The notes: generated by a model not told the origin, from the letters alone. 64,000 bases of DNA from an uncultured Bacteroidota bacterium (GCA_937871435.1 CALMQM010000102.1:62001-126000), one strand, 5' to 3'; shown: positions 27,050 through 49,492, numbered from the stretch's first letter. Translations and numbers: made by a program.

Positions 27050-28228
27050 TTATTCAAAAGCACTGATACCGGTAATATCCATTCCTGTGATGAGAAGATG
27101 AATATCGTGTGTTCCTTCGTAGGTGATCACTGACTCGAGGTTCATCATGTGTCGCATGATTGGATATTCGCCGGTGATACCCATTCCGCCATGAATCTGA
27201 CGGGCTTCCCGGGCAATCTGGAGGGCCATATTCACATTGTTTCTTTTCGCCATGGATATTTGTGATGGTGTAGCACGATTTTCATTTTTCAATACTCCCA
27301 ATCTCCAGGTAAGAAGTTGTGATTTCGTAATTTCAGTAATCATTTCGGCCAGCTTTTTCTGTGTGAGCTGGAATGCGCCGATTGGTTTACCAAACTGAAT
27401 ACGTTCTTTAGAATAACGCAACGCAGAATCATAACAATCGAGAGCTGCTCCAATGGCTCCCCAACTGATTCCGTAGCGAGCTGAATTCAGACAACCAAGC
27501 GGGCCTTTCAGTCCTTTGACATTTGGCAGAATATTTTCCTTCGGAACTTTTACATTATCAAATACCAATTCACCGGTTGCGCTTGCACGCAACGACCATT
27601 TACCATGTGTTTCAGGAGTACTGAATCCGGGCATCCCTCGTTCGAGAATCATTCCACGGATAATTCCTGCTTCATCCTTAGCCCATACGACAGCAATGTC
27701 AGCAAAAGGAGCATTGGATATCCACATTTTTGCTCCGTTAAGTACATAATGATCTCCTTTGTCTTTGATGTTGGACAACATTCCGCTTGGGTTCGAACCG
27801 TGATCAGGTTCAGTAAGACCGAAGCATCCCATCCATTCACCCGATGCTAATTTTGGGAGATATTTTTTTCTTTGTTCTTCGCTTCCATAAGTGTAGATCG
27901 GATACATCACGAGAGAACTCTGAACCGATGCAGTAGAACGCAAACCGGAGTCACCTCTTTCCAATTCCATCATGATTAATCCGTATGCAATCTGATCCAG
28001 TCCTCCACCTCCATATTCAGCAGGAATGTATGGTCCAAATGCACCAATTTCAGCAAGTCCTTTGATCCATTGTTTTGGGAATGTCGCGGTTTGGCAAGCT
28101 TCTTCTACGATTGGTGAAACTTCCTTTTTTACCCATTCGCGAACGCTGTTGCGTATTAGTTTATGTTCTTCGCTTAATAATTCGTCAACGAGATAATAAT
28201 CGTGGTATTGAAAACGGTCTGTAGCCAT
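27050..28228 (-). CDS. Acyl-CoA dehydrogenase, glutaryl-CoA dehydrogenase-like
   Basis: A 392-residue FAD enzyme. Acyl-CoA dehydrogenase signatures: CFGLTEPDHGSNPSGM, AKMWISNAPFADIAVVWAKDE, NSARYGISWGAIGAALDCYD, ERIQFGKPIGAFQLTQKKLAEM and, at the C-terminus, the catalytic base Glu371 in TYEGTHDIH. The Arg and Glu environment (GDSGLRSTASVQSSLVMYPIY) is that of glutaryl-CoA dehydrogenase, which oxidises and decarboxylates glutaryl-CoA to crotonyl-CoA in lysine and tryptophan breakdown. The ATG at 28228 (MATDRFQYHDYY) is preferred to one 12 codons upstream, which adds only a short atypical leader. It is transcribed alone; the radical SAM region starts on the other strand 167 bases away. Confidence 0.9.
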   Translation of the reverse strand: MATDRFQYHDYYLVDELLSEEHKLIRNSVREWVKKEVSPIVEEACQTATFPKQWIKGLAEIGAFGPYIPAEYGGGGLDQIAYGLIMMELERGDSGLRSTASVQSSLVMYPIYTYGSEEQRKKYLPKLASGEWMGCFGLTEPDHGSNPSGMLSNIKDKGDHYVLNGAKMWISNAPFADIAVVWAKDEAGIIRGMILERGMPGFSTPETHGKWSLRASATGELVFDNVKVPKENILPNVKGLKGPLGCLNSARYGISWGAIGAALDCYDSALRYSKERIQFGKPIGAFQLTQKKLAEMITEITKSQLLTWRLGVLKNENRATPSQISMAKRNNVNMALQIAREARQIHGGMGITGEYPIMRHMMNLESVITYEGTHDIHLLITGMDITGISAFE

Positions 28229-28395
28229 GAATAGATGAATTGATTGCGTGTTTACAAATTTCAAGTGGTACCGGAAAAGGAATATTCAGATGAGCAATAA
28301 AAGCTTGTGTCTGAGTCACAATTTCCGATGAAAGCACCGGAAGCCTTTTTCTTTCCCGCTGCGAATTTAGTAAATATTCATTCCTTTGTTTTTAA

Positions 28396-29676
28396 ATGCA
28401 ATTCGCGGAAGACTTACTTTTCAGAACAAGCAAAAAATCTATTGGTCTGCTTTTGATTTTGAGCTTATTTCCATTTGTCTATGGTATTATTCCCGGTTGG
28501 AAAAAAATGCAAAGCGACTTTCCCAATTACTATGTATCCGCAAATTTGATTGCAAATGGAAAGGCGGTAGACAGTTTATATCATGCAGATTGGTTTCAAA
28601 ATCAGATTTATTCACATGGAATATCTGAGCAGGGAAAATTTTCTCCATTCCCGCCCCCTACCGCTTTGATTCTCACTCCTATTGCGGGATTTGACGCCCT
28701 TAGTGCGAAGCGCATCTGGTTAGTATTCAATATTTTGTTGCTTCTGCCAATAGTTTTGCTGCTTCACCGGATATCAGGTTTGTCAATTTCCGGCAGCCTC
28801 ATCCTGTTGCTTTCATGTGGAGTCGGATTGGTGAATAATTTTATGCTCGGGCAGATGTATTTGTTGCTTCTCTTTATACTGTTGAGCGCGTACTTTTTTT
28901 TACTCCGAGGAAATGCAGGCAGTACAGGATTATTATTGGGTGGAGGAATCGCGGTAAAATATTTTCCACTTGTATTTGCTCCAACTCTGATCGCTGAAAA
29001 AAGATGGAAGAGTCTCGCAAGTACAGCAGTAATGATTGCATTGATACATTCCGTTTGTATGGGGATTATGGGTTTACAGGTATATAAGGAGTATATTCTG
29101 GATGTTTTATTCCAGCATTTAAATGGAAATTTATCCGGACAGTCTTCCTGGTCAGCCAGTTTTCAATCATGGAATTCACTTGGGCATCAGTTGTTTTTAA
29201 GCCATGACGTTTTCAATCCTAAACCATTGATGAACTCTTTGGTTTGTTTCTATTTTGTCAAATACGGAATACCTTTACTTGTGGGCATTTTCACTGCAAG
29301 ACTTTTTTTCCTTTATAAAAAACAGGTTGACTTTATTGAAGCTTCTTTGGCAATGGTATCTGTAGCTGTGTTATTGTGTTCACCAGCCGGAGCGACTTAT
29401 CACGGAATTTTACTACTCTTCCCTCTCGGACTCCAATGTCGGATATTGATTGACCGTAAAATGACAAACGGAATTCTGTTGGTGTTGTTCAATTTACTGT
29501 TGATTGGTTACCTTCCACCTTTGCTGGAAAAATTAACTGTTGCTCAGTACAATTTATTCTTTACTTACACCCGCTTATGGCTCTACATGTCATTATATAT
29601 ATTGATGCATTGGCAATTGCATAAGATAAGCAGAATGTCAGAAGTAAAAAATGAATCATTCGTTTCCCCTGCCTGA
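28396..29676 (+). CDS. GT87-family (DUF2029) polyprenol-linked glycosyltransferase-like protein
   Basis: A 426-residue membrane protein with about ten hydrophobic helices from residue 15 to 415. The first loop carries the family pattern FPNYYVSANLIANG and KFSPFPPPTALILTPI, with the Asp normally found (as D-F/L-x-x-Y) in QSDFPNYY. GT87 enzymes use a polyprenyl-phosphate sugar and transfer it outside the membrane, as in mannosylation of glycolipids. It opens the run of same-strand genes that includes the flippase and the radical SAM enzymes. The flippase starts on the base after its stop codon, showing tight coupling. Confidence 0.82.
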   Translation: MQFAEDLLFRTSKKSIGLLLILSLFPFVYGIIPGWKKMQSDFPNYYVSANLIANGKAVDSLYHADWFQNQIYSHGISEQGKFSPFPPPTALILTPIAGFDALSAKRIWLVFNILLLLPIVLLLHRISGLSISGSLILLLSCGVGLVNNFMLGQMYLLLLFILLSAYFFLLRGNAGSTGLLLGGGIAVKYFPLVFAPTLIAEKRWKSLASTAVMIALIHSVCMGIMGLQVYKEYILDVLFQHLNGNLSGQSSWSASFQSWNSLGHQLFLSHDVFNPKPLMNSLVCFYFVKYGIPLLVGIFTARLFFLYKKQVDFIEASLAMVSVAVLLCSPAGATYHGILLLFPLGLQCRILIDRKMTNGILLVLFNLLLIGYLPPLLEKLTVAQYNLFFTYTRLWLYMSLYILMHWQLHKISRMSEVKNESFVSPA

Positions 29677-30873
29677 ATGAATAGTGATAAAATAGCCAAA
29701 CGGGTTCAGATTGTCGTCTTAAATGCTTTTGCCAACATGTCGGCACCAATGGTGAACATGTTGTGCTCCCTGCTGGTAATCCGCCTGATTTCACCGGAGC
29801 TATGGGGCGCGTACACCAAAATTTTACTATGGTTTCTTCTCGGCCTTCAGCTGGTAGGTTTTGGCAACAAAGAATTCCTGTTGAGAGAATTCAGCAAAAG
29901 GCCGACTGACATAATACATCTTTGGGCAAATTCTCTTCGGTGGAGAGCTTTGCTCATGTTTGCAGGAGCGATCGTAGTTTTTTTTCTTCCTTTCGATTCT
30001 TCCATCCGCATAATTCTCGCAGCATGGTTTGTGGTGCGGTTTCTCTACAGCAGTTTTGATGCATTGGTGTTATTTCAAAAAAAATTTCTCCTTACCGTGA
30101 TGCTGGAACTTTTTGGTTTTATTGCATTCTGTATTTTACTCTATCTACGATCTGATTCATCCGGCTTACTCTGGCTGCTGAGCACATTTTTAACTCTTGA
30201 CATACTGAAAACCCTTGTGCTTGTCAGTGCTTTTTTCACGGAGCTGAAGGGAATCAAAAGCAGTACTCATGAATTTTCTTTTTACGAAGGAGCTTTCCCT
30301 TTTTTCCTGCTTTCAATCAGTGGAATGATTGGCTCGAGAACTGACATGTATATGGTATCTGTATATCTTGACAAAGTACAAATTGCTCAATACAGTGTCT
30401 TGCTTAATTTCCTGATTTATCTACAGGCTTTGAGCAATTTTATTTTTCAACCATTTATAAAAAACATTTATCGAATCAACATACAAAGTACACGGAAACT
30501 TTCAAGACAATTATTCGGAACAGGTATACTTGTCGCGGGTTTTGGAGTTCCTCTCGTATGGTGGGTTTGCGCGTATTTATTTAAAATACAATTTAACCTC
30601 TGGATGACGCTGACCGGCATTTTCTATGTACTTCCTGTGTTTTATTATTTGCCTCGAATATATTTTCTATACAAAACCGGAAAGGAACAATGGGTTTTGT
30701 ATGTCAACCTTGGAGGAATTATTCTCAACTTTCTTTTGAATTTATTCTGGCTTCCATCATTTGGAATCAGTGGGGCACTGATGGCGGCAACAGTAGTTCA
30801 ATTAGCGAGTCTGCTTATGTATTCTATCCTCGAAAAAAAACTGCTCAGAGATGTTGCATTTGAAATGTCCTGA
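29677..30873 (+). CDS. Polysaccharide/lipid flippase of the MOP superfamily (Wzx-like)
   Basis: A 398-residue protein with about twelve hydrophobic helices and few charged loops. The N-terminal motif NAFANMSAPMVNMLCSLLVIRLISPELWGAYTK is the usual start of Wzx/RfbX flippases (helix 1 ending in SPEXXGAY). The family moves undecaprenyl-linked glycans or other amphiphiles across the inner membrane. Here it sits between a GT87 enzyme and methyltransferases, so its cargo may be the product of this cluster. Its 3' end overlaps the next gene by 23 bases. Confidence 0.85.
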   Translation: MNSDKIAKRVQIVVLNAFANMSAPMVNMLCSLLVIRLISPELWGAYTKILLWFLLGLQLVGFGNKEFLLREFSKRPTDIIHLWANSLRWRALLMFAGAIVVFFLPFDSSIRIILAAWFVVRFLYSSFDALVLFQKKFLLTVMLELFGFIAFCILLYLRSDSSGLLWLLSTFLTLDILKTLVLVSAFFTELKGIKSSTHEFSFYEGAFPFFLLSISGMIGSRTDMYMVSVYLDKVQIAQYSVLLNFLIYLQALSNFIFQPFIKNIYRINIQSTRKLSRQLFGTGILVAGFGVPLVWWVCAYLFKIQFNLWMTLTGIFYVLPVFYYLPRIYFLYKTGKEQWVLYVNLGGIILNFLLNLFWLPSFGISGALMAATVVQLASLLMYSILEKKLLRDVAFEMS

Positions 30874-31705
30874 GTGCAGGAAACCTTTGATTCCAACAGA
30901 GCAGGTATGCTCTTGCGGTTTTCAATTGAAAATTACGGATGGTATTGTGGAATTGTATTCTTATACATTTCGCCGGCGATTGGAAAATTTTCTGCTTGAT
31001 TACGATCGGGTTTACAGAGCAGAAAACGCTACTATTTCAGAGGATGAACTGACACGCTCGCCTTTTGTGTATTCCGGACCTTTAAAAAAAGACTGGGCGT
31101 ACAGAAGAAGAAGTCTGGATGTCCTACGTCCACAACTTTCAATAAATAAAAAATTGTCAGTGCTTGAAATTGGTCCATGGAATGGCTGGTTGAGCAAACA
31201 GATCATTGGGGCCGGACACCGGTTGGTTGCTGTAGACTATTTTAGAACGCCTCCATACGGTTTGCAGACTTACAAAAGTGATTCTCCTGAGCACACAAAG
31301 ATCCAGCTCGACCTACATGATCTCTCCGTACTTGATGAAAAGTTCGATTTACTGATACTCAATCATTGTCTTCAATTTTTTCCGGATCCAATTGCATATA
31401 TAGAGCAGTGTATTCAAAAGTTAAACAAGGAAGGCAAACTTTTTATAATCGGGTCACCGATATATCATGCTTCTGTAAAAAAAGCTTCACAGATTCAGAA
31501 ACAAAAAATCTATTACAAAGAGAAGTATAACTTTGATTTGTTCTTTCAGGCCGGTAAAGGATATCTGGATTCTTCCGATCTTAGGGAGATGATAAAATCT
31601 GGTGTTCAATTTCATTCGTATCCGGGAAGCTGGTTAAAAAATTTAGTTGCTGAAATAAATCCCTCCAGGGCGAAGTATCTCTTCGGCACTTATCTTCATT
31701 GTTAA
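30851..31705 (+). CDS. SAM-dependent methyltransferase with N-terminal zinc ribbon
   Basis: A 284-residue protein. Residues 6-22 hold a four-Cys knuckle (C6, C9, C20, C22) like that of Trm112-type zinc ribbons. Residues ~100-215 are a class I Rossmann methyltransferase: motif I LEIGPWNGW at 105-113, AVDYF as motif II, LDLHDLSVLDEKFDLLILNHCLQFF as motif IV and post I. The 111-residue C-terminal part is unassigned. The substrate is unknown; zinc-ribbon methyltransferases of this type often act on sugars, lipids or natural products. The start overlaps the flippase gene, so the two are translationally coupled. Confidence 0.82.
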   Translation: MLHLKCPECRKPLIPTEQVCSCGFQLKITDGIVELYSYTFRRRLENFLLDYDRVYRAENATISEDELTRSPFVYSGPLKKDWAYRRRSLDVLRPQLSINKKLSVLEIGPWNGWLSKQIIGAGHRLVAVDYFRTPPYGLQTYKSDSPEHTKIQLDLHDLSVLDEKFDLLILNHCLQFFPDPIAYIEQCIQKLNKEGKLFIIGSPIYHASVKKASQIQKQKIYYKEKYNFDLFFQAGKGYLDSSDLREMIKSGVQFHSYPGSWLKNLVAEINPSRAKYLFGTYLHC

Positions 31706-31727
31706 ATTATTGTCAAAAAAAATGAGA

Positions 31728-31811
31728 ATGTTAACATGCACTCCTGCACTGTATTCATTTTAAGGCACAATTAAACGTTCTTTAACAAAATACAACGCTG
31801 TTAAAATGAAT
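31728..31811. promoter_or_regulatory. Nested inverted repeats in the gap before the small ORFs
   Basis: Three features: the perfect palindrome ATGTTAACAT (31728-31737); an 11-bp inverted repeat ATTCATTTTAA / TTAAAATGAAT (31753-31763 and 31801-31811); and inside it TTTAACA / TGTTAAA (31781-31787 and 31799-31805). The half-site TGTTAA/TTAACA recurs three times. The last arm runs into the ATG at 31806. It could be an operator cluster or an mRNA structure covering the start. Confidence 0.4.
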
Positions 31812-31889
31812 GCCAATAAAAAAATGAAATGGTTGATAAATTTATCTGTATGTTTCATTTCTCTGAATTACATTCGCTGCCATAAATAA
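31806..31889 (+). CDS. Candidate 27-residue peptide (unsupported small ORF)
   Basis: An ATG-started frame encodes a basic N-terminus (NANKKMK), then a hydrophobic stretch (WLINLSVCFISLNYI) and an end with RCHK. It looks like a signal-peptide-like or membrane peptide and carries two Cys. It ends six bases before the start of the next gene, a typical operon spacing. Nothing beyond layout supports expression; a chance frame of this length is quite likely in AT-rich DNA. Confidence 0.25.
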   Translation: MNANKKMKWLINLSVCFISLNYIRCHK

Positions 31890-31895
31890 TAAATC

Positions 31896-32258
31896 ATGTT
31901 GTCTGTTGATCTTAGTCCGACCGAAGAAAAAATTATCCGTCATCTGTGTGACGTCCAAATAGAATCATTCACAAAGCTTAAAGAAAAAGACAGCAGCGCG
32001 GAGGTGGATTCGCATCTTGCAGCCGAACAGGTAAGCGCTTCTGAATTTATGGATATTGTGAATGCAGAGTTGGAAAAGTATCATCTCGTTCGCGACACTC
32101 CTGCGAAAATGTTTAGTCTGGAGCACATGCTGTTTAATACTCTGAAAGAAATGACGATTAACTATGAAGCAGAGCTTACGGAGCTATTTGAAGCAGAGCT
32201 TCCTGATTTTTGGAAAAAACTATTCCTGGCTGAATACATTTGGAGCAATATGAATTGA
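31896..32258 (+). CDS. Uncharacterised 120-residue acidic helical protein
   Basis: I recognise no family. The protein has no signal peptide or membrane segment, is acidic (many Glu) and almost wholly helical. It starts LSPTEEKIIRHLCDVQIESF and ends WKKLFLAEYIWSNMN. The first helix shares the pattern LSPTE-x2-IIR-x-L with the N-terminal winged-helix part of the nucleotidyltransferase gene at 35021, which may be chance or may mean a related fold. It lies between the zinc-ribbon methyltransferase and the first radical SAM gene, in the same direction, and could be a small partner protein of the cluster. Confidence 0.6.
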   Translation: MLSVDLSPTEEKIIRHLCDVQIESFTKLKEKDSSAEVDSHLAAEQVSASEFMDIVNAELEKYHLVRDTPAKMFSLEHMLFNTLKEMTINYEAELTELFEAELPDFWKKLFLAEYIWSNMN

Positions 32259-32323
32259 TCACTTTGAATCAGTTCATTTGTTTCTTTTCTGTAAATTTTT
32301 TTGAGAGGGATTTTATTCTCCTG

Positions 32324-32350
32324 TTGGTCGGTCATGAATTTGTATCTTCG
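32324..32350 (+). promoter_or_regulatory. Possible promoter before the first radical SAM gene
   Basis: TTG (32324-32326), 16 bases, then TATCTTCG (32343-32350), one mismatch from TAnnTTTG. The leader would be about 14 nt. Confidence 0.35.
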
Positions 32351-32367
32351 TACAAAGGTGCAGAAAG

Positions 32368-33921
32368 ATGAATCCCACAGTGCTGTTTTTTAATCCAAGA
32401 GCCGCGAGATCGAAGCCTCGCTTGCCTAACAGCATATTGTCTGTTGCCGCTTCAATAGACGATTCGTACTCATGGGCTTTTGTGGATGGTAATCTTGAAG
32501 AAGATCCCTGGCCGAAATTATCTGCATATTTAAAAACCGGTTCTGTACGTTTTTTTGCCTGTACGGTCATGCCAGGGCCACAACTTCGTCAGGCGATTCC
32601 ACTAACAAAAAAAATCAAAGAAAATTTTCCCGAAGTTTTTGTGATTTGGGGAGGATATTTCCCTTCGAATCAATATGAAGTTGTGTTGAACTCCGGCATC
32701 GTGGATGTAGTGGTAAATGGTCCCGGCGACAAAGCATTTCCATTATTACTAAAATCCATTGACACAGGGTCTCCTTCACCGGCAAGCATCGGCAACCTGA
32801 TTTTCAGGGCCGATAAGTTTTCTGGTTCCGGAGCGATTAAAACCAAGTCAGGTATCGACACAGAGAAATTCATTGTAACGAGAAAAGATGATTTGTATGA
32901 ACAGGATGAATTGCCTCCTCTCCCCTATGAAAAGCTGAATTCATTTTATCCGATTGGTCGTTATTTGGGTAAGACTTACCTCGGAACAAAAACGATTGCT
33001 TATCATTCCAGTGTTGGTTGTCCGTTTACCTGTTCATTCTGTGCCGTAGTACCAATTTACCAGGCTCGATGGAAAGGAAAATCAGCTGAGTCCATCTTTA
33101 AAGACATTCTCTTTTTAAAAAATCACTATGGAGGAAACGCAATAGAGTTTCACGACAATAATTTTTTTGTTTCTGAAAGAAGAACGGTGGAATTCGCCCG
33201 GTTAATTGAACCGTATGATATGATCTGGTGGGGTGAAGGAAGGATTGATACCATTTCAAAATACAGTGATGAGTCATTGTCAGCTATGAGAAAGTCAGGA
33301 TGCAAAATGATATTCTTTGGCGCTGAAACAGGTAATGACGAAGTCTTGAAAAAAATGGACAAGGGCGGAACACAAACGGGAAAACAGATCCGTGAGTTCG
33401 CAGCGCGGATGAAAAAATTCGACATCATTCCGGAATATTCCTTTGTGCTCGGAATTCCGGGTGATTCGGAAGAGCAGGTCTGGAAACAAATTAAGGAAGA
33501 CATCGCGTTTATAAGGGAAATCAAGGAGATCAACCCACAAACAGAAATCATTATTTATCTCTATAGTCCGGTTCCAACACCGGGAAGCGAAATGTATTCG
33601 AAAGTTCTTGCATCAGGATTTCGTTTTCCTGAAACACTGGAAGAATGGATTAGCCCTCATTGGGAAAATTTTGATCTGAGAAAGAATCCGCTTACTCCGT
33701 GGCTTACTCCGGCTATGATAGATTACATTAAAAATTTCGAGACCGTCCTGAATGGGTACTTTCCAACTGTTTCGGATATTCGATTCTCCTCCATTCAAAC
33801 AAAGACCTTGCGTCGGTTGAGTCGTTTCCGCTATGTGAATAAATTATATTCATATCCTTTTGAAATAAAAGCTTTGCAAAAGATCTGGAAGTACAGACAA
33901 CCGGAGATAGAAGGATTTTAG
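32368..33921 (+). CDS. B12-binding-domain radical SAM enzyme (first of three)
   Basis: A 517-residue protein. Residues ~5-150 look like a cobalamin-binding Rossmann domain (VLFFNPRAARSKPRLPNSIL, VIWGGYFPSNQYEVVLNSGIVDVVVNGPGD, with GPGD where relatives have GEGE). The radical SAM core starts with the 4Fe-4S cluster motif C218-x3-C222-x2-C225 in GCPFTCSFC, then EFHDNNFFVSERRTVEFARLI and FFGAETGNDEVLKKMDKGGT. A ~120-residue C-terminal region follows. Such enzymes typically methylate or rearrange unactivated carbons. It is more distant from the other two enzymes of the cluster than they are from each other. The substrate is unknown. Confidence 0.88.
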   Translation: MNPTVLFFNPRAARSKPRLPNSILSVAASIDDSYSWAFVDGNLEEDPWPKLSAYLKTGSVRFFACTVMPGPQLRQAIPLTKKIKENFPEVFVIWGGYFPSNQYEVVLNSGIVDVVVNGPGDKAFPLLLKSIDTGSPSPASIGNLIFRADKFSGSGAIKTKSGIDTEKFIVTRKDDLYEQDELPPLPYEKLNSFYPIGRYLGKTYLGTKTIAYHSSVGCPFTCSFCAVVPIYQARWKGKSAESIFKDILFLKNHYGGNAIEFHDNNFFVSERRTVEFARLIEPYDMIWWGEGRIDTISKYSDESLSAMRKSGCKMIFFGAETGNDEVLKKMDKGGTQTGKQIREFAARMKKFDIIPEYSFVLGIPGDSEEQVWKQIKEDIAFIREIKEINPQTEIIIYLYSPVPTPGSEMYSKVLASGFRFPETLEEWISPHWENFDLRKNPLTPWLTPAMIDYIKNFETVLNGYFPTVSDIRFSSIQTKTLRRLSRFRYVNKLYSYPFEIKALQKIWKYRQPEIEGF

Positions 33922-33964
33922 TTTTTCCATTAGCAAATTACAGCGAAAGCTGTTTTCAACCCCT

Positions 33965-34141
33965 ATGAGTTTAGTGGATTATCTCCTTCATTTAAGGAAA
34001 GAAGGAGATATTAGTATTCGCAATGGGAACATTTCCGGATTTCCCCTGCCGGATCATCCGGATCGTCTTCCCGTTCAAGGTTGTTTTATACCGGTTCAGC
34101 AACAAAAACTCCCAACTGTACTCAAAATCAATCATTTTTAG
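33965..34141 (+). CDS. Candidate 58-residue small protein
   Basis: An ATG-started frame between the first radical SAM gene (43 bases upstream) and a methyltransferase (40 bases downstream). The N-terminus MSLVDYLLHLRKEGDISIR, then NGNISGFPLPDHPDRL, has a protein-like pattern weakly reminiscent of the TubC-type docking domains that start some NRPS chains (LxxLRxxG...GN-I...P). The C-terminal half (GCFIPVQQQKLPTVLKINHF) does not fit that family well. It could be a real small gene, a peptide substrate, a remnant or a chance frame. Confidence 0.35.
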   Translation: MSLVDYLLHLRKEGDISIRNGNISGFPLPDHPDRLPVQGCFIPVQQQKLPTVLKINHF

Positions 34142-34181
34142 CCTAAATTCTGAATTCGTTAGTTCATCTTCCTCTTTTGAA

Positions 34182-34904
34182 ATGCAAAATATACACAGCC
34201 CTCAATTGCGAAAAAACCCTATCCGGACCGTCGAAAAGAAAATTCTGGACACTTTTTATAAGCCAATTGTAAAATGGTATACGGGTCGTGAAAGACCCTA
34301 CACGTATAAAAACATCCCGATTACTGTTCTTCCAGGAGTTTTTCATCCCGGACTTTTTTACAGCACTCGAATTTTACTCGAATACCTTGAGTTTGTGAAT
34401 TTGCAACGAAAAAAAGTTCTTGAATTAGGCGCCGGCAGTGGATTAATTTCTGTGATGGCAGCTACTGAAGGAGGAATGGTGACTGCTACAGATATTAATC
34501 GTACATCGGTTATGAATATCCGGATTAACCGGGACCGTAATTTGAACAACATTGAAAAAAATCAGGGTACTTTAGAAGTAGTTCAATCGGATTTATTTCA
34601 GGGAATTCAAGGAAGAACCTACGATGTAATTGTGATCAATCCGCCCTATTACAAAGGGAAAGTAACGCGTACAGAAGATCATGCCTGGTATTGCGGTGAA
34701 GAATTCGAATATTTCGAACATTTGTTTAGCGGAATCAAAGAATTCATGCACCGTGAAACAGAATCGATAATGATTCTATCTGATGATTGCGATCTCGATC
34801 GCATTAAAAAAATCGCGGAACAATTCGGACTCAGATTAAGTCTAAAACTGACACGTCGGAATCTGATTGAAAAGAACTTTATTTTTCAGATCAAAGTTGC
34901 TTAA
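34182..34904 (+). CDS. SAM-dependent methyltransferase with NPPY motif
   Basis: A 240-residue protein with class I motif I ELGAGSG at 81-87, ATDIN as motif II and motif IV NPPYYKG at 153-159. NPPY is the signature of N-methyltransferases acting on nitrogen in planar groups or amides (HemK/RsmC and MTS families). The N-terminal part (PYTYKNIPITVLPGVFHPGLFYSTRILLEYL) resembles the PrmC-like lead-in. The frame is open to 34023, but the extra 53 residues look non-coding, so I place the start at 34182. It is the second methyltransferase of the radical SAM cluster. Confidence 0.82.
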   Translation: MQNIHSPQLRKNPIRTVEKKILDTFYKPIVKWYTGRERPYTYKNIPITVLPGVFHPGLFYSTRILLEYLEFVNLQRKKVLELGAGSGLISVMAATEGGMVTATDINRTSVMNIRINRDRNLNNIEKNQGTLEVVQSDLFQGIQGRTYDVIVINPPYYKGKVTRTEDHAWYCGEEFEYFEHLFSGIKEFMHRETESIMILSDDCDLDRIKKIAEQFGLRLSLKLTRRNLIEKNFIFQIKVA

Positions 34905-34930
34905 TTTTTATCTTTCTAATTAAGAACCGA

Positions 34931-34949
34931 TCTCCGGAAATCGGAGATG
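34931..34949. other. Short hairpin after the NPPY methyltransferase gene
   Basis: ATCTCCG (34931-34937) pairs with CGGAGAT (34943-34949) around GAAAT. No T run follows, so it is a weak candidate terminator. Confidence 0.3.
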
Positions 34950-35008
34950 TTGTTGCTACATAGTTCTGTAAAATTCCCTTCAATTCTTAAACATAAGGCA
35001 GTTTGATC

Positions 35009-35016
35009 TATCTTTG
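35009..35016 (+). promoter_or_regulatory. -7 element immediately before the nucleotidyltransferase gene
   Basis: TATCTTTG matches TAnnTTTG and ends five bases before the ATG at 35021, which would give an almost leaderless transcript. No TTG -33 element is seen. Confidence 0.45.
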
Positions 35017-35020
35017 GTAA

Positions 35021-35989
35021 ATGAATATTGCCATTGCTTCTGCTATTCATCCCCAGGATACAGAAGTCTGTTTATCCCCTACTGAATCCGCCATCATCCG
35101 GACTCTGCTATATTTTGAAATTTTCAGTCACCCCCTGACTCTTGATGACATTATAAATTGTCTTTCTATTCCGGTTACGGATCGAACTTACATAGTAAGG
35201 GTTATTGAAGAATTGGTTCAGCAGGGATACATTAAAAAATGCGACGGCTATTATCTCATTCATGGTTCTCCTGAAATTATTGAAAGACGAAAAAACGGAG
35301 AAAAGCTTGCGCGAAAATCTTTGAAGACAGCGAAACGATTTTCTTCCCTGATCGCGCATTTTCCTTTTGTCAGGGCTATCTGCTTATCCGGATCTATTTC
35401 TAAATATTACATGGATGAGAAATCAGATATAGATTATTTCATCATCACTACCGCAGGAAGGATGTGGGTTGCAAGAACTCTTTTAGTACTTTTTAAGAAA
35501 ATATTTCTGTTGAACTCGAAAAAATATTTCTGCGTTAACTACTTTATCACGGAGGAATCATTGTATGTGAGTACTCAAAATATTTACGCTGCTATGGAAA
35601 TGAGTTCCATTGTCCCTACATACAACTACCCATTGTACAAATCGCTTCTTAGAGAAAATAATTGGATAAAAAAATATTACCCGAATTTTCCAATACGCGG
35701 GAAGGAATGGGTCATTCAAAAAAGAAAATATTTCCTGAAACCCGTTCTTGAGAAAATATTTGGTGGCAAAACAGGAGAACGATTGGATAAATTCTGCTAT
35801 CGTCTTACTTTGAATCACTGGAAGAAAAAATTCAGTCATTTCGACGAATCCACTTTTGATCACAGGTTGAGAAACGGAAGGAATGAATCCAAACATCATC
35901 CATTGGGATATCAACAAAAAGTATTGGAGAAGCTGGAACAGAAAATTCGTCAGTTTGAAGTAGCAAACGGTCTCATTTTGAGTGAATGA
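35021..35989 (+). CDS. Winged-helix / nucleotidyltransferase-fold protein
   Basis: A 322-residue protein. Residues ~18-80 look like a winged helix (LSPTESAIIRTLLYFEIFSHPLTLDDI, VIEELVQQGYIKKCDGYYLI). Residues ~115-145 hold the Pol-beta-type nucleotidyltransferase signature LSGS at 122-125 followed by D136 and D138 in SDIDYFII. Residues ~150-322 are basic and helical. Proteins of this fold transfer nucleotides to proteins, small molecules or RNA, so the catalytic role is likely but the target unknown. The stop overlaps the start of the next radical SAM gene by four bases (ATGA), which ties it to that enzyme. Confidence 0.78.
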   Translation: MNIAIASAIHPQDTEVCLSPTESAIIRTLLYFEIFSHPLTLDDIINCLSIPVTDRTYIVRVIEELVQQGYIKKCDGYYLIHGSPEIIERRKNGEKLARKSLKTAKRFSSLIAHFPFVRAICLSGSISKYYMDEKSDIDYFIITTAGRMWVARTLLVLFKKIFLLNSKKYFCVNYFITEESLYVSTQNIYAAMEMSSIVPTYNYPLYKSLLRENNWIKKYYPNFPIRGKEWVIQKRKYFLKPVLEKIFGGKTGERLDKFCYRLTLNHWKKKFSHFDESTFDHRLRNGRNESKHHPLGYQQKVLEKLEQKIRQFEVANGLILSE

Positions 35990-37467
35990 AAAAAATCCTT
36001 TTCACCCATAGTTATTTTCTTCGATTTGATCCGAAGCAATGGAAACTGCAGCAGGCATATCCACCATTGGGCACTTTGTATGCGGCGGCTTTTACGCGCA
36101 ACGCGGGTTATGAAGTAAGTTTATTTGATACCATGTTTCTTCAGGACGCACAAGAAATCTCTCCTGTTCTGAAAAGTGAAAAACCTGATGTACTGGTTAT
36201 TTACGATGACGGGTTTAACTACCTCACTAAAATGTGTCTCACGAATATGCGTGAAGCCGCATTTGTGATGATCGGACTTGCCAAAAAAAGCGGCATACAT
36301 GTCATTGTTTCCGGTAGTGATGCAAGTGATCAGAGTGAAAAATATTTAGATGCGGGAGCTGATTACGTGTTGGCAGGAGAAGGAGAAATTACGCTGCTGG
36401 AAGTGCTGAATTCGATGAGTGAATCCGGAGATAAAAAGTCAGATATACCGGGAACAATTTTGAAATCTTCCAATGGAATTATCCGAAATAAAAAACGGGA
36501 AGTTGTACGCGAACTGGATACTTTTCCTCACCCTGCATGGAACCTGATCGATGTGAAAGAATACAAGTCACGATGGATGAAACAACATGGTTATTTTTCT
36601 CTGAACATCAGCACTACACGTGGATGCCCTTTTCATTGTAACTGGTGTGCTAAACCTATTTACGGAAACAGGTACAATGTTCACAGCCCGGATTGGGTGG
36701 TGGAAGAATTAAAATTTCTGATAGCTACATATGGAGTTTCTCATTTCTGGATGACAGATGACATCTTCGGTTTAAAGCCTGGTTGGATTGCCCGTTTTGC
36801 TGAATTGGTAAAGCGTGAAAAATTGCAGTTCAGATTTAAAATTCAGTCGCGCGTGGATTTACTGCTTGAAGAAAATGCGATTGCATTGTTGGCAGAAATT
36901 GGCTGTGATACGATTTGGGTGGGTGCTGAAAGTGGTTCTCAAAAAATCCTGGATGCGATGGATAAAGGAACCAAAGTGGAGCAGATTTTTACAGCTACCA
37001 GACTGATGAAAAAACATGGGATAAAGCCGGCATTTTTTCTTCAGTTCGGATATCCCGGAGAAAACGCGGATGACATTCAGGCTACAATTTCAATGGTGAA
37101 ATCATTGATGCCTGACGATATCGGAATCTCTGTCAGCTATCCACTGCCCGGGACGAAGTTTTTTGAAAAAGTAAAAGAAGAATTGAAAGATAAATCCAAC
37201 TGGACTGACAGCGATGAGCTTGCCATGATGTTCAGCAATACTTATCCTTCATCATTCTATAAAGTGCTGCAGCGATATGTTCACCGTACCTACCGTACAC
37301 GACAAGGAATCACGGAGATGAAAAATTTATTCAGTTCTCCTGTTCAGATATCATTTCGTCAACTGAAGAGAATCGCCGCGATTCCTGTTCATGCCACAGG
37401 AAGCGCATACTATAAATCAAAGTTGGAAATTATCAGTGGCGAACACGGTTTAGTTGGAATAAATTGA
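35986..37467 (+). CDS. B12-binding-domain radical SAM enzyme (second of three)
   Basis: A 493-residue protein. The N-terminal ~150 residues form a cobalamin-binding-type domain (THSYFLRFDPKQWKLQQAYP, LGTLYAAAFTRNAGYEVSLFD, VIVSGSDASDQ, YVLAGEGEITLLEVL). The radical SAM core has the cluster motif C214-x3-C218-x2-C221 in GCPFHCNWC, then FWMTDDIFGLKPGW and VGAESGSQKILDAMDKG. The layout recalls BchE/HpnJ-type enzymes. It is clearly paralogous to the third enzyme (38445): both share the opening TH-x-YFL...YPPLG and AESGSQ-x-ILDAMD. It overlaps the nucleotidyltransferase gene by four bases. Confidence 0.9.
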   Translation: MKKILFTHSYFLRFDPKQWKLQQAYPPLGTLYAAAFTRNAGYEVSLFDTMFLQDAQEISPVLKSEKPDVLVIYDDGFNYLTKMCLTNMREAAFVMIGLAKKSGIHVIVSGSDASDQSEKYLDAGADYVLAGEGEITLLEVLNSMSESGDKKSDIPGTILKSSNGIIRNKKREVVRELDTFPHPAWNLIDVKEYKSRWMKQHGYFSLNISTTRGCPFHCNWCAKPIYGNRYNVHSPDWVVEELKFLIATYGVSHFWMTDDIFGLKPGWIARFAELVKREKLQFRFKIQSRVDLLLEENAIALLAEIGCDTIWVGAESGSQKILDAMDKGTKVEQIFTATRLMKKHGIKPAFFLQFGYPGENADDIQATISMVKSLMPDDIGISVSYPLPGTKFFEKVKEELKDKSNWTDSDELAMMFSNTYPSSFYKVLQRYVHRTYRTRQGITEMKNLFSSPVQISFRQLKRIAAIPVHATGSAYYKSKLEIISGEHGLVGIN

Positions 37468-37495
37468 ATTTTTTCAAAGGAATGTATTTGATATC

Positions 37496-38305
37496 ATGTT
37501 TATGATGCCGGAAACTGATTCACTTTTTGATTTGCTGGCATCTGATTATGATGACACTTTTACGCATTCTGAAATTGGTAAACTTCAGCGGGGCAAAGTC
37601 TGGGAATATCTTGATTCGCTTTCTCTTCCATCAGCCAGAGTATTGGAACTGAATTGTGGTACAGGAGAAGATGCATTGCTTCTTGCACAGAAAGGACACA
37701 ATGTAATCGCTACAGATGTTTCATCCAACATGATAGTTAAGGCGGAAGAAAAAATGAAGAGAGCAGGCGCGAAGAATATTACTTTCTTCGTAAGCGATAT
37801 GCGGGAATTGAAGAAACAATTTTCCGGTCAGCGTTTCGATTTTATCTTTTCCAATTTTGGTGGACTAAATTGTTTGTCGGAAAACGAACTGAATGCTCTA
37901 TCGCAAGATTTGCTTTCGCTTCTAAAACCCGGAGGCAGGCTGGTGCTTGTTATGATGAGCAGAAAATGTGTGTGGGAAAATTTCTATTTTCTTTTAAAGG
38001 GAAATTTTTCCAGTATATTCAGAAGGAGAAAAAGAGGGGGAATTGAATTCAAAGCAGGCAATACAATTTTGCAAACATATTATTATTCACCTCGGGAAAT
38101 AATGTCACTTTTTGGTTATGGGTGGCAAATGAAAAAACAACTTCCCGTCGGATTCTTTGTCCCTCCATCCTATTTGCAGACTTTTTTTCAACGACATCCG
38201 AAACTGCTTCGTTTTTTAGCCTCAATGGACCGGCATTTCTCGGCCTTCAGTTTTCTTGCTGATTATGCAGATCATTTTATTCTGCATCTTGAACGGGAAA
38301 AATGA
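37496..38305 (+). CDS. Class I SAM-dependent methyltransferase
   Basis: A 269-residue protein. It opens FDLLASDYDDTFTHSEIGKLQR, a lead-in common to ubiquinone/biotin-type small-molecule methyltransferases. Motif I VLELNCGTGED is at 49-59, motif II ATDVSSNMI, motif III VSDMREL and post I LSLLKPGGRLVLVM. The acceptor substrate cannot be told; O- or C-methylation of a small molecule or lipid is most usual. It lies 28 bases after the second radical SAM gene. Confidence 0.85.
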   Translation: MFMMPETDSLFDLLASDYDDTFTHSEIGKLQRGKVWEYLDSLSLPSARVLELNCGTGEDALLLAQKGHNVIATDVSSNMIVKAEEKMKRAGAKNITFFVSDMRELKKQFSGQRFDFIFSNFGGLNCLSENELNALSQDLLSLLKPGGRLVLVMMSRKCVWENFYFLLKGNFSSIFRRRKRGGIEFKAGNTILQTYYYSPREIMSLFGYGWQMKKQLPVGFFVPPSYLQTFFQRHPKLLRFLASMDRHFSAFSFLADYADHFILHLEREK

Positions 38306-38444
38306 ATCCTGTTATTACATCCGGCAGAAAACAATCCTGAAATTCAAATTGCAGTGACTATATTAAAATTACGATTAAAGACTTTAGGTCGCCTTTAGTA
38401 AAAGATTGATGTAGTATTTGTACATTCGTGTCATCCCTCACTCC

Positions 38445-39866
38445 ATGTCTCCTATTTTTCTTACTCACGCATATTTCCTTCAGGAGGATCCTAAGGAACT
38501 GGAGATCATGAAGCCTTATCCTCCGCTGGGTATCCTGTATATATCAGCATATCTCGAAGAGCATGGTTTCAATTCACGTGTTTTTGATTCTACCTTTTCG
38601 ACTTTTGAAAAATTATGTGCTGAATTGATTTCTGTCAAACCTGAAATTCTCGGAATTTATACCAACCTCATGACAAAATTGAATGTCCTGAGAATTATAC
38701 AGTTTGTAAAAACTTCTTCCGAGCTTAAACATACCAGGATAATTTTAGGTGGCCCTGAAGTCCGCAATCATTCCGAAAAATTTCTACGGTATGGCGCTGA
38801 TGTAATTGTTGTTGGTGAGGGAGAAGAGACAATGCTTGAGTTGGTAACTCATTTTACAGAAAATAAAAGTGGGGAAGCGGATTCAACAAACGGGTTGAAA
38901 ACGATTTCCGGCATTTCATTTATTGACTCTGAAAAAAATGCAGTAACAACGCCAGGGAGAAGTCTGCTCAGAGACATGGATCAACTGCCTTTCCCGAACA
39001 GAAAAAAAATTGATCTGCACTTGTATTTCGATGCCTGGAAAAATCGTCACGGAGAAAGTACGATTTCAGTCAGCACCATGCGCGGATGTCCCTATACATG
39101 CAAGTGGTGCAGTCGGGCTGTATACGGACAAAGTTACCGCCGAAGAAGTGCAGTGAAGGCGGTGGATGAACTGCAAACTTTACAGTCTGCTTACCAATTT
39201 GACACAATCTGGTTTGTGGATGATGTATTTACAATCAGTCATGTCTGGTTGCAGGAATTCCGGGATGAAATTGTAAGGCGAAAAATCGCTGTTCGTTTTG
39301 AATGCATCACGCGAGCAGACAGGATGAATGATCTGGCCATTCGTTTACTCAAAGAAAGCGGATGTTTCCGGGTTTGGATCGGAGCTGAAAGCGGATCACA
39401 AACAATTCTTGACGCGATGGACAGGAGAGTAAAAGTGGAACAGGTAGGAGAAATGATCCGGAAAAGTAAGTCAGCAGGAATTCAGACAGGAACTTTTATC
39501 ATGGTAGGATACCCCGGTGAAACTGAATCAGATATTGAATCGACAATTGCGCATCTGAAATCTTCGGATCCTGATTTGTATACCATTACGGTTGCGTATC
39601 CGATAAAAGGGACGGAATTGTATGCGCAAACCGAGTCTGGTTTCAGAGAACAATTGCCATGGGAAACGAGCACAGACAGACAAATAGATTTTGCACGTAC
39701 CTATTCCCGAAGGTATTACGAATTTGCCATTAGAAGGGTTTACAATGAAGTCGCTTTTTTTAAAACTCAAAAAAATAATAAAGCGAAGTTCTTTAGATTG
39801 ACAAAATTCAAATTGAAATCGCTGCTCGCCAAAGGAGGAATGTTGTGGGAAAGAAGTTTCTCTTAA
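38445..39866 (+). CDS. B12-binding-domain radical SAM enzyme (third of three)
   Basis: A 473-residue protein. The N-terminal domain (THAYFLQEDPKELEIMKPYP, LGILYISAYLEEHGFNSRVFD, IILGGPEVRNHSE, IVVGEGEETMLELV) has the usual shape of a cobalamin-binding domain. The core motif is C215-x3-C219-x2-C222 in GCPYTCKWC, followed by WFVDDVFTISHVWL and IGAESGSQTILDAMD. It is a close paralogue of the 35986 enzyme, most likely by duplication and specialisation. I chose the ATG at 38445 (MSPIFLTHAYF) over a TTG nine codons upstream. An ECF sigma gene starts 69 bases after its stop. Confidence 0.9.
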   Translation: MSPIFLTHAYFLQEDPKELEIMKPYPPLGILYISAYLEEHGFNSRVFDSTFSTFEKLCAELISVKPEILGIYTNLMTKLNVLRIIQFVKTSSELKHTRIILGGPEVRNHSEKFLRYGADVIVVGEGEETMLELVTHFTENKSGEADSTNGLKTISGISFIDSEKNAVTTPGRSLLRDMDQLPFPNRKKIDLHLYFDAWKNRHGESTISVSTMRGCPYTCKWCSRAVYGQSYRRRSAVKAVDELQTLQSAYQFDTIWFVDDVFTISHVWLQEFRDEIVRRKIAVRFECITRADRMNDLAIRLLKESGCFRVWIGAESGSQTILDAMDRRVKVEQVGEMIRKSKSAGIQTGTFIMVGYPGETESDIESTIAHLKSSDPDLYTITVAYPIKGTELYAQTESGFREQLPWETSTDRQIDFARTYSRRYYEFAIRRVYNEVAFFKTQKNNKAKFFRLTKFKLKSLLAKGGMLWERSFS

Positions 39867-39935: not shown

Positions 39936-40487
39936 TTGGTTCGACGAATTAAAATAACTGAAGAGGAACTCATCCGGTTGCTTTCCAATCGGGAAGAAAA
40001 AGGCATTGAAATTCTATACGATAATTATTCCGCCGCGTTATATGGGGTGATCCACAGGATTGTGCAACAGGATGAAATTGCAGAAGATGTTTTGCAGGAA
40101 ACGTTCCTGAAAATCTGGAACAATTTCGGGCAATATGATTCAGCGAAAGGCCGTTTATTCAGCTGGATGATCAATATTGCCAGAAATGCTTCAATTGATA
40201 AGGTGAGATCGAAGGAATTTGTGAACCGAAACAAAAACCAGAACATTGAAAAGGCCGTATTTTCGGCTGGAGAAGACTTGCAATCAGGCTTCAATCCGGA
40301 AACTATCGGAATCAAAAAAATGGTTCAGGAACTGGAACCGGAATATCGTCAGGTTATCGAATTGTTGTTCTTCGGGGGCTATTCTCAATCTGCTGCCGCG
40401 GAGAAATTGAATATTCCACTTGGGACTGTAAAAACACGTTCTCGGGCAGCATTGCAAAAGTTGAAAAATTATTTTGAAAGAATTTAG
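39936..40487 (+). CDS. RNA polymerase sigma-70 factor, ECF family
   Basis: A 183-residue protein. Region 2 (~20-95) contains ILYDNYSAALYGVIHRIV, EDVLQETFLKIWNNF and GRLFSWMINIARNASIDKVR; region 4 (~125-180) contains LEPEYRQVIELLFFGGYSQSAAAEKLNIPLGTVKTRSRAALQKLK. It would direct RNA polymerase to a specific stress-type promoter set. There is no ATG before region 2; the frame is open to the previous stop and the TTG at 39936 (VRRIKITEEEL) is the best start. Its anti-sigma partner starts nine bases after the stop. Confidence 0.93.
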   Translation: MVRRIKITEEELIRLLSNREEKGIEILYDNYSAALYGVIHRIVQQDEIAEDVLQETFLKIWNNFGQYDSAKGRLFSWMINIARNASIDKVRSKEFVNRNKNQNIEKAVFSAGEDLQSGFNPETIGIKKMVQELEPEYRQVIELLFFGGYSQSAAAEKLNIPLGTVKTRSRAALQKLKNYFERI

Positions 40488-40495
40488 TTCAATCA

Positions 40496-41302
40496 ATGGA
40501 TATTAAAGATTACATAGCATCAGGTGTCGTTGAGATGTATGCGATGGGAACTCTTTCTCCTGAGGAAAAGAAGGAGTTTGAGCAGAAGATGCTTGTGTAC
40601 CCTGAAGTGGCTGCAGAATTAAGAAGTGTCCAGGAGACTCTGGAAAATTTTGCGGAGAGTCACAGTCGAAATCCGAGGCCGGAATTACGTGGCGAAGTTT
40701 TGGAGAAAGTTATCGGAAAAGGAAGCGCAGGAAAAGATAAGGGAAATATCATCCCACTTGATCCTACCCACAGGCTCACCTACAAATATCTCATTGCTGC
40801 GAGTCTCGCCGCTTTGCTGATCAGTACTTTCGCCTCCTGGTTTTTCTATAACAACTGGAACGATGCAGAGGATCGTTATGTAGCTGTTTTGAAAGAAAAA
40901 AATCAGATGGCCGAAAATTACAATCAGGTTAAAAATTCTTTTGAACACACCTATTCTGATCTCCTGGTAATGCGCGATGGAGATGCGAAAGTGATGATGT
41001 TAATGCCAATCGACAGTACGAAACGTTATCAGATGCGTGTGTATTGGAATCAATATACCAGCGAGACGTACATTGACGTGTTGGCACTTCCTGATCCGGG
41101 TGAAGGAAAACAATATCAGCTTTGGGCGATAGCAGGCGGCATTCCTACTGATGCAGGCGTCTTCAGTATCCCGGAAGATCAAAGTATGATGCGTGTAAAA
41201 AACATCAATGTTGCAGAACAGTGGGCTGTGACCATTGAACCCAAAGGTGGAAGTGTAAGTCCGACTATGGATCAGATGATTCTGATTAGCAAAAACAGTT
41301 GA
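40496..41302 (+). CDS. Anti-sigma factor, RskA family
   Basis: A 268-residue membrane protein. Residues 1-~75 form the cytoplasmic sigma-binding domain (YIASGVVEMYAMGTLSPEEKKEFEQ). A membrane helix spans ~97-117 (YLIAASLAALLISTFASWFF). A short coiled coil follows (~120-150). The outer RskA domain (~150-268) holds MLMPIDSTKRYQMRVYWNQ, GKQYQLWAIAGGIPTDAGVF and AVTIEPKGGSVSPT, typical of PF10099. It holds the ECF sigma factor inactive until an envelope signal releases it. The sigma gene is directly upstream, as expected. Confidence 0.92.
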   Translation: MDIKDYIASGVVEMYAMGTLSPEEKKEFEQKMLVYPEVAAELRSVQETLENFAESHSRNPRPELRGEVLEKVIGKGSAGKDKGNIIPLDPTHRLTYKYLIAASLAALLISTFASWFFYNNWNDAEDRYVAVLKEKNQMAENYNQVKNSFEHTYSDLLVMRDGDAKVMMLMPIDSTKRYQMRVYWNQYTSETYIDVLALPDPGEGKQYQLWAIAGGIPTDAGVFSIPEDQSMMRVKNINVAEQWAVTIEPKGGSVSPTMDQMILISKNS

Positions 41303-47819: not shown

Positions 47820-47890
47820 TTTCAGATTCTTTTGTGTAACCAGCAAGGGAATTGGGACAATCCTTTCTTCAATTTAAGATTCCATTCAGC

Positions 47891-49492
47891 ATGCAAATTT
47901 TTCCCCGACTAAGACAGTCTAATTATCTTTTTTTCTTCGGGCTCTGTCTGCTTGTTGCCGGACTTCCGGTTTCATTATTCCTTACGAGTTTATCACAATT
48001 TTTTATTGCAGGATCTTTCTTTCTGGAAGGAGATCTTTCAACAAAAATAAAACGATACATTTCGAACCGAAGTGCTTTGCTGTTGACAGGTATCTGGTTG
48101 CTTCATGTTGCAGGTTTATTGTGGACAACAGATATACAAGAAGGGCTAAAGGATATTCGGATTAAACTTCCTCTGTTGATTTTGCCATTGGTGATGTCCG
48201 GATCTGCACCATTGAGTACAAAACAATTTCGCTTTATTCTCTACCTTTTTGTCTTTTCAGTTTTTAGCGGATCACTGGTATCCATAGCGGTTCTGAATGG
48301 ACTTATTCCGACAAAGGCGCCGATCTATGATATTCGGGAGATTTTCATTCTGGGTGTTTCACATATTCGTTTTGCGCTTTTCACCTGTCTTGCAGTGATC
48401 GTCGTAGGTTGGTTAATGTACACACGAGAACAAAAAACGTTTGGTTCAAAACTTTTATTGAGCGCACTCATGCTTTGGTTGTCGATATTTCTCTTCATCA
48501 TTGAATCCATAACAGGTATATCCATCCTTATCATCTGTGGACTGCTATTCCTGTGGTACAATGTGATCCGGCATCAGTCAAAATGGTTACGTTTTGCATC
48601 GGCTGTTTTGGTGATTGCGATACCACTTTCTTTGTTCTTCTATCTGAAAAACTTTGTCCAAACCTACTCTCCTGCTCCTCCACAGGAATTGGATTTTACT
48701 AAAAAAACAAACCGAGGAAACGCGTATTTTTTTGATACAACAAATACGCAGGTAGAAAACGGTTACAGGGTATATGCTTATGTATGTGAATATGAAATGC
48801 GCGAGGAGTGGAACAAAAGAAGCTCTATTCCTTTTGACTCATTGGATCAGCGGAAACAACCGGTGAAATCCACTCTGATTCGATTTCTTGCTTCGAAAGG
48901 AGAAACAAAAGATGGTGACGCGGTTTTAAGACTGAGTGATGAAGAAGTTCATTCAATAGAAAGAGGAATTGCGAATGTGTATTATGAACACATTTCAAGC
49001 ATTAAAAGCAGATTGTTGCAGATACTTTGGGAATATCATGAATACATGCGCGGTGGTGATCCAAGCGGGCATTCGGTTACGCAACGTCTTGAATTCTGGA
49101 GAGCGGCCGCTGCCATCATTGCCGATCATCCCTGGACAGGAGTAGGTACAGGAGATATGCCTGAAGCTTATGGTGAAGAATATCAGAAAATGAATACGCA
49201 GTTGATGCAGAAATACCGTTTGCGTGCGCACAATCAGTACCTTGCGATTGCCGTGGCATTTGGAATTCCTGCTCTGATTTATTTTCTTTTCACTCTGTTC
49301 TATCCGATCAGGAAGGCACTACGAAACCAAAATATTCTTTTTATTAGTTTCTGGGTGATTGCATTTTTTTCCATGTTTACAGAGGACACACTGGAGACAC
49401 AGGCTGGCGCAACATTTGTCGCTTTGTTTTGGTCACTGTTTTTATTTTCTTCTGATGCCGCAGAAATTGAAGATGTGAAAAATCAATTCTGA
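47891..49492 (+). CDS. O-antigen ligase (WaaL/RfaL-like) family protein
   Basis: A 534-residue membrane protein with about ten helices and one large outer loop (~275-395). The loop is followed by the family signature TQRLEFWRAAAAIIADHPWTGVGTGDMPEAYGEEY and the catalytic-type His in RLRAHNQYLAIAVAFG. WaaL-type enzymes join polyprenyl-linked polysaccharide to lipid A-core or to proteins. The start at ATG 47891 gives a cytoplasmic basic N-terminus before helix 1; the earlier TTG is not needed. It lies 72 bases after the S41 protease gene. Confidence 0.85.
   Translation: MQIFPRLRQSNYLFFFGLCLLVAGLPVSLFLTSLSQFFIAGSFFLEGDLSTKIKRYISNRSALLLTGIWLLHVAGLLWTTDIQEGLKDIRIKLPLLILPLVMSGSAPLSTKQFRFILYLFVFSVFSGSLVSIAVLNGLIPTKAPIYDIREIFILGVSHIRFALFTCLAVIVVGWLMYTREQKTFGSKLLLSALMLWLSIFLFIIESITGISILIICGLLFLWYNVIRHQSKWLRFASAVLVIAIPLSLFFYLKNFVQTYSPAPPQELDFTKKTNRGNAYFFDTTNTQVENGYRVYAYVCEYEMREEWNKRSSIPFDSLDQRKQPVKSTLIRFLASKGETKDGDAVLRLSDEEVHSIERGIANVYYEHISSIKSRLLQILWEYHEYMRGGDPSGHSVTQRLEFWRAAAAIIADHPWTGVGTGDMPEAYGEEYQKMNTQLMQKYRLRAHNQYLAIAVAFGIPALIYFLFTLFYPIRKALRNQNILFISFWVIAFFSMFTEDTLETQAGATFVALFWSLFLFSSDAAEIEDVKNQF

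Follow-up and report, generated by a model that had tools for sequence, protein, structure and literature searches.

A recurrent Bacteroidota gene cassette built on B12-type radical SAM enzymes as a candidate modifier of surface glycans

Most of the cobalamin-dependent radical S-adenosylmethionine (SAM) enzymes known to date serve in the making of antibiotics, cofactors or lipids. We know of no Wzx/Wzy-dependent O-antigen or exopolysaccharide locus type in which multiple B12-type radical SAM enzymes and a nucleotidyltransferase-fold protein form a conserved set. Class 1 cobalamin radical SAM enzymes, such as OxsB, TokK and TsrM, have a Rossmann-type B12-like domain at the N-terminus, ahead of a radical SAM domain with the CxxxCxxC motif; they lack the DxHxxG histidine motif, and the solved members bind cobalamin base-off instead of His-on (PMC13331322). 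Here, we analyzed a 64,000-nt stretch (the window) of contig 102 of the Bacteroidota genome G000, in which ten plus-strand genes, designated A to J, occupy positions 28396-39866 and include three radical SAM genes (E, H and J) whose products begin with B12-binding-like domains. We consider it somewhat probable that this cassette, acting in the cytoplasm prior to export, chemically modifies a lipid-linked surface glycan such as an O-antigen or exopolysaccharide, and that it does so in two chemotypes. The components are of known kinds, and no curated family or paper that we found describes the cassette; most subscription journals were outside the literature search that yielded no description. 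The initial annotation of this DNA had named no pathway of this composition, and none was matched by the curated NCBIfam families, by a test for squalene-hopene cyclase or by the literature.

The product of gene G (35021-35989), a winged-helix and nucleotidyltransferase-fold protein, was the most specific probe for the distribution searches. It was found in 5 of 11 genomes of the family, in 10 of 42 of the order, counting one in which the gene is broken and fragmentary, and in 32 of 395 of the phylum. Within the order, a profile search located the radical SAM gene H (35986-37467) in exactly the nine genomes with a full-length G. E and J, found in six of the 42 genomes each, were confined to these nine. 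When 84,980 species genomes were scanned with H, at least 538 relatives were obtained; the best 80, which were kept, include members of Chitinophagales, Sphingobacteriales, Flavobacteriales, Cytophagales, Ignavibacteria and Kapabacteria.

Linkage was counted, without correction for relatedness, over the 109 distinct loci whose H is full-length, most of them from Bacteroidota and some from Ignavibacteria. G lies near H in 101 of these loci, and the class I methyltransferase gene I (37496-38305; PF13649, 3.2e-20) in 98, immediately after H in 89; three further loci (L053, L055 and L074), from three genomes, encode an H-I fusion, for a total of 101. The remaining genes are less constant near H: E in 68 loci, F in 31, J in 24, the GT87 gene A in 13 and the flippase gene B in seven (L081, L082, L104, L122, L135, L148 and L160). 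Besides these, G is joined to a GT4 glycosyltransferase in L082, and in L073 the I protein extends into a region with weak similarity to GT29. The near-universal core is thus G-H-I. To it are added an E branch and variable members, namely C, F, J and the glycan-handling genes for GT87 and the flippase. In support of the initial annotation, the set is retained as a unit in loci that do not share the housekeeping flanks of the window. As a separate observation, one relative without H retains a decayed copy of G, a remnant with several stops (G037:C137:15236-15493, L018).

The three radical SAM proteins E (32368-33921; PF04055 1e-13, PF02310 3.7e-07, CPFTCSFC at residue 218), H (PF04055 5.7e-22, PF02310 3.8e-10) and J (38445-39866; PF04055 3.1e-21, PF02310 9.1e-17) were placed in a tree of 207 E, H and J proteins. 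The 69 E proteins form one clade and the 23 J proteins another, each with support 1.0, and 113 of the 115 H proteins fall in a separate clade, so that each of the three enzymes represents an orthologous family of its own. All 207 proteins contain the CxxxCxxC motif, and DxHxxG occurs in only one of them. With respect to the B12-binding profile PF02310, whose cut-off is 32.1 bits, H (40.1) and J (61.4) score above and E (30.5) just below. Based on this domain similarity, the three enzymes probably use cobalamin. The missing DxHxxG motif does not exclude it, because base-off binding in OxsB, TokK and TsrM needs no such histidine (PMC13331322). CobS is missing from the host genome, and the corrinoid is therefore probably imported. 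Since the cobalamin radical SAM group includes both methylating and rearranging members (PMC13142503), the reaction of E, H and J is not readable from sequence.

The best solved relatives of these proteins are 9ccb, AprD4, OxsB, CysS and TokK. Unlike OxsB, TokK and TsrM, the E, H and J families lie together in one cassette and far under all curated NCBIfam cut-offs: assignment to the named B12 radical SAM families (PhpK, BchE, HpnJ, HpnR, AprD4 and others) was rejected, as the best scores were 85.6 for E, 140.8 for H and 154 for J, versus cut-offs of 251-775. AprD4 (PDB 6fd2), a radical SAM dehydratase of apramycin-type aminosugars and thus a carbohydrate-acting enzyme, ranks second among the solved relatives of both H and J. 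However, H scores 69.6 against an AprD4 cut-off of 500, no AprD3-like partner was seen, and the setting of E, H and J is that of surface polysaccharides, in contrast to the aminoglycoside cluster of AprD4. Locus L135 (9602-13782) contains three H-like radical SAM genes with GT9, GT87 and flippase genes, and the products of two of the three do not group with the H clade.

The neighborhood of the module was searched within 20 kb for nine types of polysaccharide genes, including Wzy_C, sugar transferase, Wzx, GT2, GT4 and GT9. Such genes were present in 15 of 29 module loci of the phylum sample and in 42 of 48 of the species scan, versus none of 40 control segments from the same genomes, a comparison in which the query genes had been drawn from module loci and the control segments balance this only in part. 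As in Wzx/Wzy-dependent O-antigen and exopolysaccharide loci, a Wzx-type flippase, Wzy_C, sugar transferases and GT2, GT4 and GT9 enzymes are found around the module. In the window, a Wzy_C O-antigen ligase-like protein (47852-49489) is encoded beside a GT2 gene (49530-50285) on the opposite strand, 8-10 kb downstream of the cluster; in G028, E is located on a different contig than G-H, near GT4, Wzy-like and Wzz-like proteins.

Protein B (29677-30873), annotated initially as a flippase, has no Pfam match, and a profile sequence search of the PDB returned none. Its relatives were recognized from the fold alone: the predicted model, with a predicted local distance difference test score (pLDDT) of 83, matches WzxE (9g95, 1.6e-06) and MurJ (6nc6, 2.2e-06) in Foldseek, with probability 1.00, as a member of the multidrug/oligosaccharidyl-lipid/polysaccharide (MOP) fold. 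From this model, B is predicted to flip a lipid-linked saccharide. Together, the locus counts, the fold of B and the polysaccharide enrichment place the flippase and the glycosyltransferases in the neighborhood of the module, in agreement with the initial annotation.

The genes adjoining E alternate. In 64 loci, F (34182-34904) was found beside E in 26 and an amidohydrolase gene together with a gene for another methyltransferase, MT7, in 32, while both occurred in none (Fisher p 1.5e-12, uncorrected for relatedness). In the E tree, the state changed about six times between F and amidohydrolase plus MT7, with at least four changes on supported branches; a pair-based sign test, with three supported pairs, was not significant alone. 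L081 and L082, from close relatives in which the E proteins are 82% identical and the gene order is otherwise alike, show F swapped in place for MT7 and the amidohydrolase. F and MT7 cannot be aligned. F (PF05175, 2.6e-16) is a class I methyltransferase of the N-methyltransferase type, in which the NPPY residues N154-P155-P156 are invariant in 21 homologs and whose nearest solved relatives are MJ0882, RsmC and HemK. The amidohydrolase keeps the metal ligands HxH, H, H and D in 38 sequences and resembles aminofutalosine deaminase, below the cut-off. It is possible that this enzyme merely cleans up 5′-deoxyadenosine; that it alternates strictly with F speaks instead for a step in the pathway. 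The product of E would then bear a nitrogen group with two alternative fates. The choice between F and amidohydrolase plus MT7 offers a direct handle on the product, and close relatives allow the chemotypes to be compared.

The nucleotidyltransferase fold assigned to G by the initial annotation was borne out by a predicted model (pLDDT 93), which consists of a winged helix with IclR-like matches, a nucleotidyltransferase domain whose nearest structures are MntA, ANT(4'') and AadA, and additional helices. G shares with these MNT and aminoglycoside nucleotidyltransferases the pol-beta fold and the GS...DxD signature; it differs from them in its extra winged helix, its residues C171 and N173, its radical SAM neighbors and the lack of a toxin partner. 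In 33 homologs, G124, D136, D138, C171 and N173 are invariant, and S125 is conserved in 26. C171 and N173 lie, in a position assigned by eye, on the strand that usually bears the third catalytic acid.

Whereas the genes with their families and folds, their linkage and fusions, the polysaccharide setting and the alternation beside E are observed, the substrate, all reactions and the order of steps that follow are inferred. A glycan or activated sugar would be supplied by glycosyltransferases, which in this genome are encoded outside the cluster. E, H and J would attack unreactive carbons, either C-methylating or rearranging them with the help of SAM and, probably, of cobalamin. I would complete what H produces, at the site where H has acted, a role suggested by the H-I fusions. 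F would methylate a planar nitrogen of the E product, a task that in other lineages may fall to the amidohydrolase and another methyltransferase, and G would act with H, perhaps by moving a nucleotidyl group onto the saccharide. B, as a WzxE/MurJ-like protein, would then flip the lipid-linked product, to which the GT87 enzyme A may add a sugar at the outer face. It is conceivable, if less than probable, that the whole constitutes an undescribed, phylum-wide Bacteroidota pathway, in which serial cobalamin radical SAM reactions on a surface glycan yield a branched or C-methylated, nitrogen-bearing sugar in two interchangeable chemotypes, defined by F N-methylation or by amidohydrolase plus MT7. 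A cassette that combines two or three such enzymes next to surface-polysaccharide genes in common soil and water Bacteroidota, such as Mucilaginibacter, Niastella and Flavobacterium, would imply that unusual sugar chemistry is widespread on bacterial surfaces, with a bearing on phage and predator recognition and on enzyme discovery.

Besides the origin of the polysaccharide queries, several observations weigh against the modification of a surface glycan. In the evenly sampled set, 14 of 29 module loci have none of the nine polysaccharide types within 20 kb. The cluster of the window has no cytoplasmic glycosyltransferase, and no substrate-defining gene, such as one of a nucleotide-sugar pathway, is constant across the module loci. 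E scores just under the PF02310 cut-off, and none of the three radical SAM proteins of the window has DxHxxG. Finally, the invariant Asn of G in place of the usual third acid makes nucleotidyl transfer uncertain.

The initial annotation favored an exported small molecule or lipid, and a cluster that makes such a free, glycosylated compound, with the polysaccharide genes as chance or regulatory neighbors, would be consistent with the distance between the window cluster and the main polysaccharide genes, with the frequent service of B12-domain radical SAM enzymes in natural product and lipid pathways, and with the hint of a nitrogen-containing product given by F and the amidohydrolase. Nevertheless, the recurrent neighbor families include no recognizable gene for polyketide or fatty-acid synthesis, for a peptide synthetase or for a precursor peptide, the polysaccharide genes are strongly enriched at module loci, and the fold of B is that of flippases of lipid-linked oligosaccharides. 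Given this company of polysaccharide and O-antigen biosynthesis genes, a modified surface glycan is now the likelier product, and we regard the free small molecule as unlikely, though worth keeping in view.

Alternatively, the cassette could alter the membrane lipid that carries the sugar, polyprenyl or another, and not the sugar, by hopanoid- or ladderane-like chemistry. E, H and J do resemble HpnJ and the B12 radical SAM family of lipid biosynthesis in NCBIfam, below the cut-offs, but they reach 85-150 bits versus cut-offs of 360-600, and PhpK and BchE score as well, so the similarity is generic. A hopanoid pathway is excluded, as the squalene-hopene cyclase domain PF13249 is absent from the host genome, in a search whose control was positive; action on a lipid carrier is, overall, improbable. 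Slightly more improbable still is that E, H and J act on protein or RNA and that G serves as their regulator. Peptides and McrA are modified by other B12 radical SAM enzymes, the winged-helix N-terminus of G has its IclR-like matches, and MNT-type relatives modify proteins; against this, no small precursor gene recurs in the module loci among open reading frames of at least 70 aa, and the glycosyltransferase and flippase neighborhood, with the GT4-G fusion, favors glycans.

In the family, the cluster occupies a defined site. In G006, G009 and G010, as in the window, it lies between an acyl-CoA dehydrogenase gene (27050-28264 in the window, minus strand) and a pair of genes for an extracytoplasmic function (ECF) sigma factor and its anti-sigma factor (39936-41302, plus strand), both outside the module. 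G002, G007 and G008 lack the cluster, and their corresponding flanks are separated by no more than a few hundred bases; the acyl-CoA dehydrogenase gene is close to the sigma and anti-sigma genes in the cluster-less loci L177, L182 and L183, and the sigma pair is retained in relatives without the cluster. In this family, the cluster is therefore a discrete insert, wholly present or wholly absent. A recent foreign origin is unsupported, the G+C content being 39.3% in the cluster and 40.8-41.0% in its flanks.

Every gene named in the initial annotation was found on the plus strand at its place, with Pfam support for GT87, the methyltransferases and the Radical_SAM and B12-binding domains. The number of genes, put at eleven to twelve, is ten between 28396 and 39866; twelve is reached only with the ECF sigma and anti-sigma genes. 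As for the short gaps or overlaps, G and H overlap by 4 bp, but gaps of 190, 109, 257, 116 and 139 bp also occur. By comparison with homolog starts, the start of F was moved from 34023 to about 34182 and that of J from 38418 to about 38445. Matches to the Bacteroidota -7/-33 promoter pattern were not above chance, and a general promoter and terminator scan gave no informative result.

The remaining genes are A (28396-29676), a GT87 family membrane glycosyltransferase (PF09594, 1.8e-21); C (30851-31705), a class I methyltransferase (PF13489, 1.7e-10) with an N-terminal CPEC...CSCG zinc ribbon; and D (31896-32258), an orphan open reading frame of 120 aa. D has no Pfam or NCBIfam match and no homolog in any fetched locus; its membership is doubtful, and it is probably irrelevant to the module. 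Methyltransferases of the MTc6 group, weakly related to C, recur in other module loci, and a family of 312-aa proteins with no credible Pfam match (L114, 2447-3382) recurs in 16 of them. In L051 (12865-15941, G009), a DUF692-like (MNIO-type) protein, a DUF2063-like partner and a small ECF sigma gene, identified by eye, are encoded between F/E and the GT87 gene, possibly as a separate peptide-modification locus nested in the cluster.

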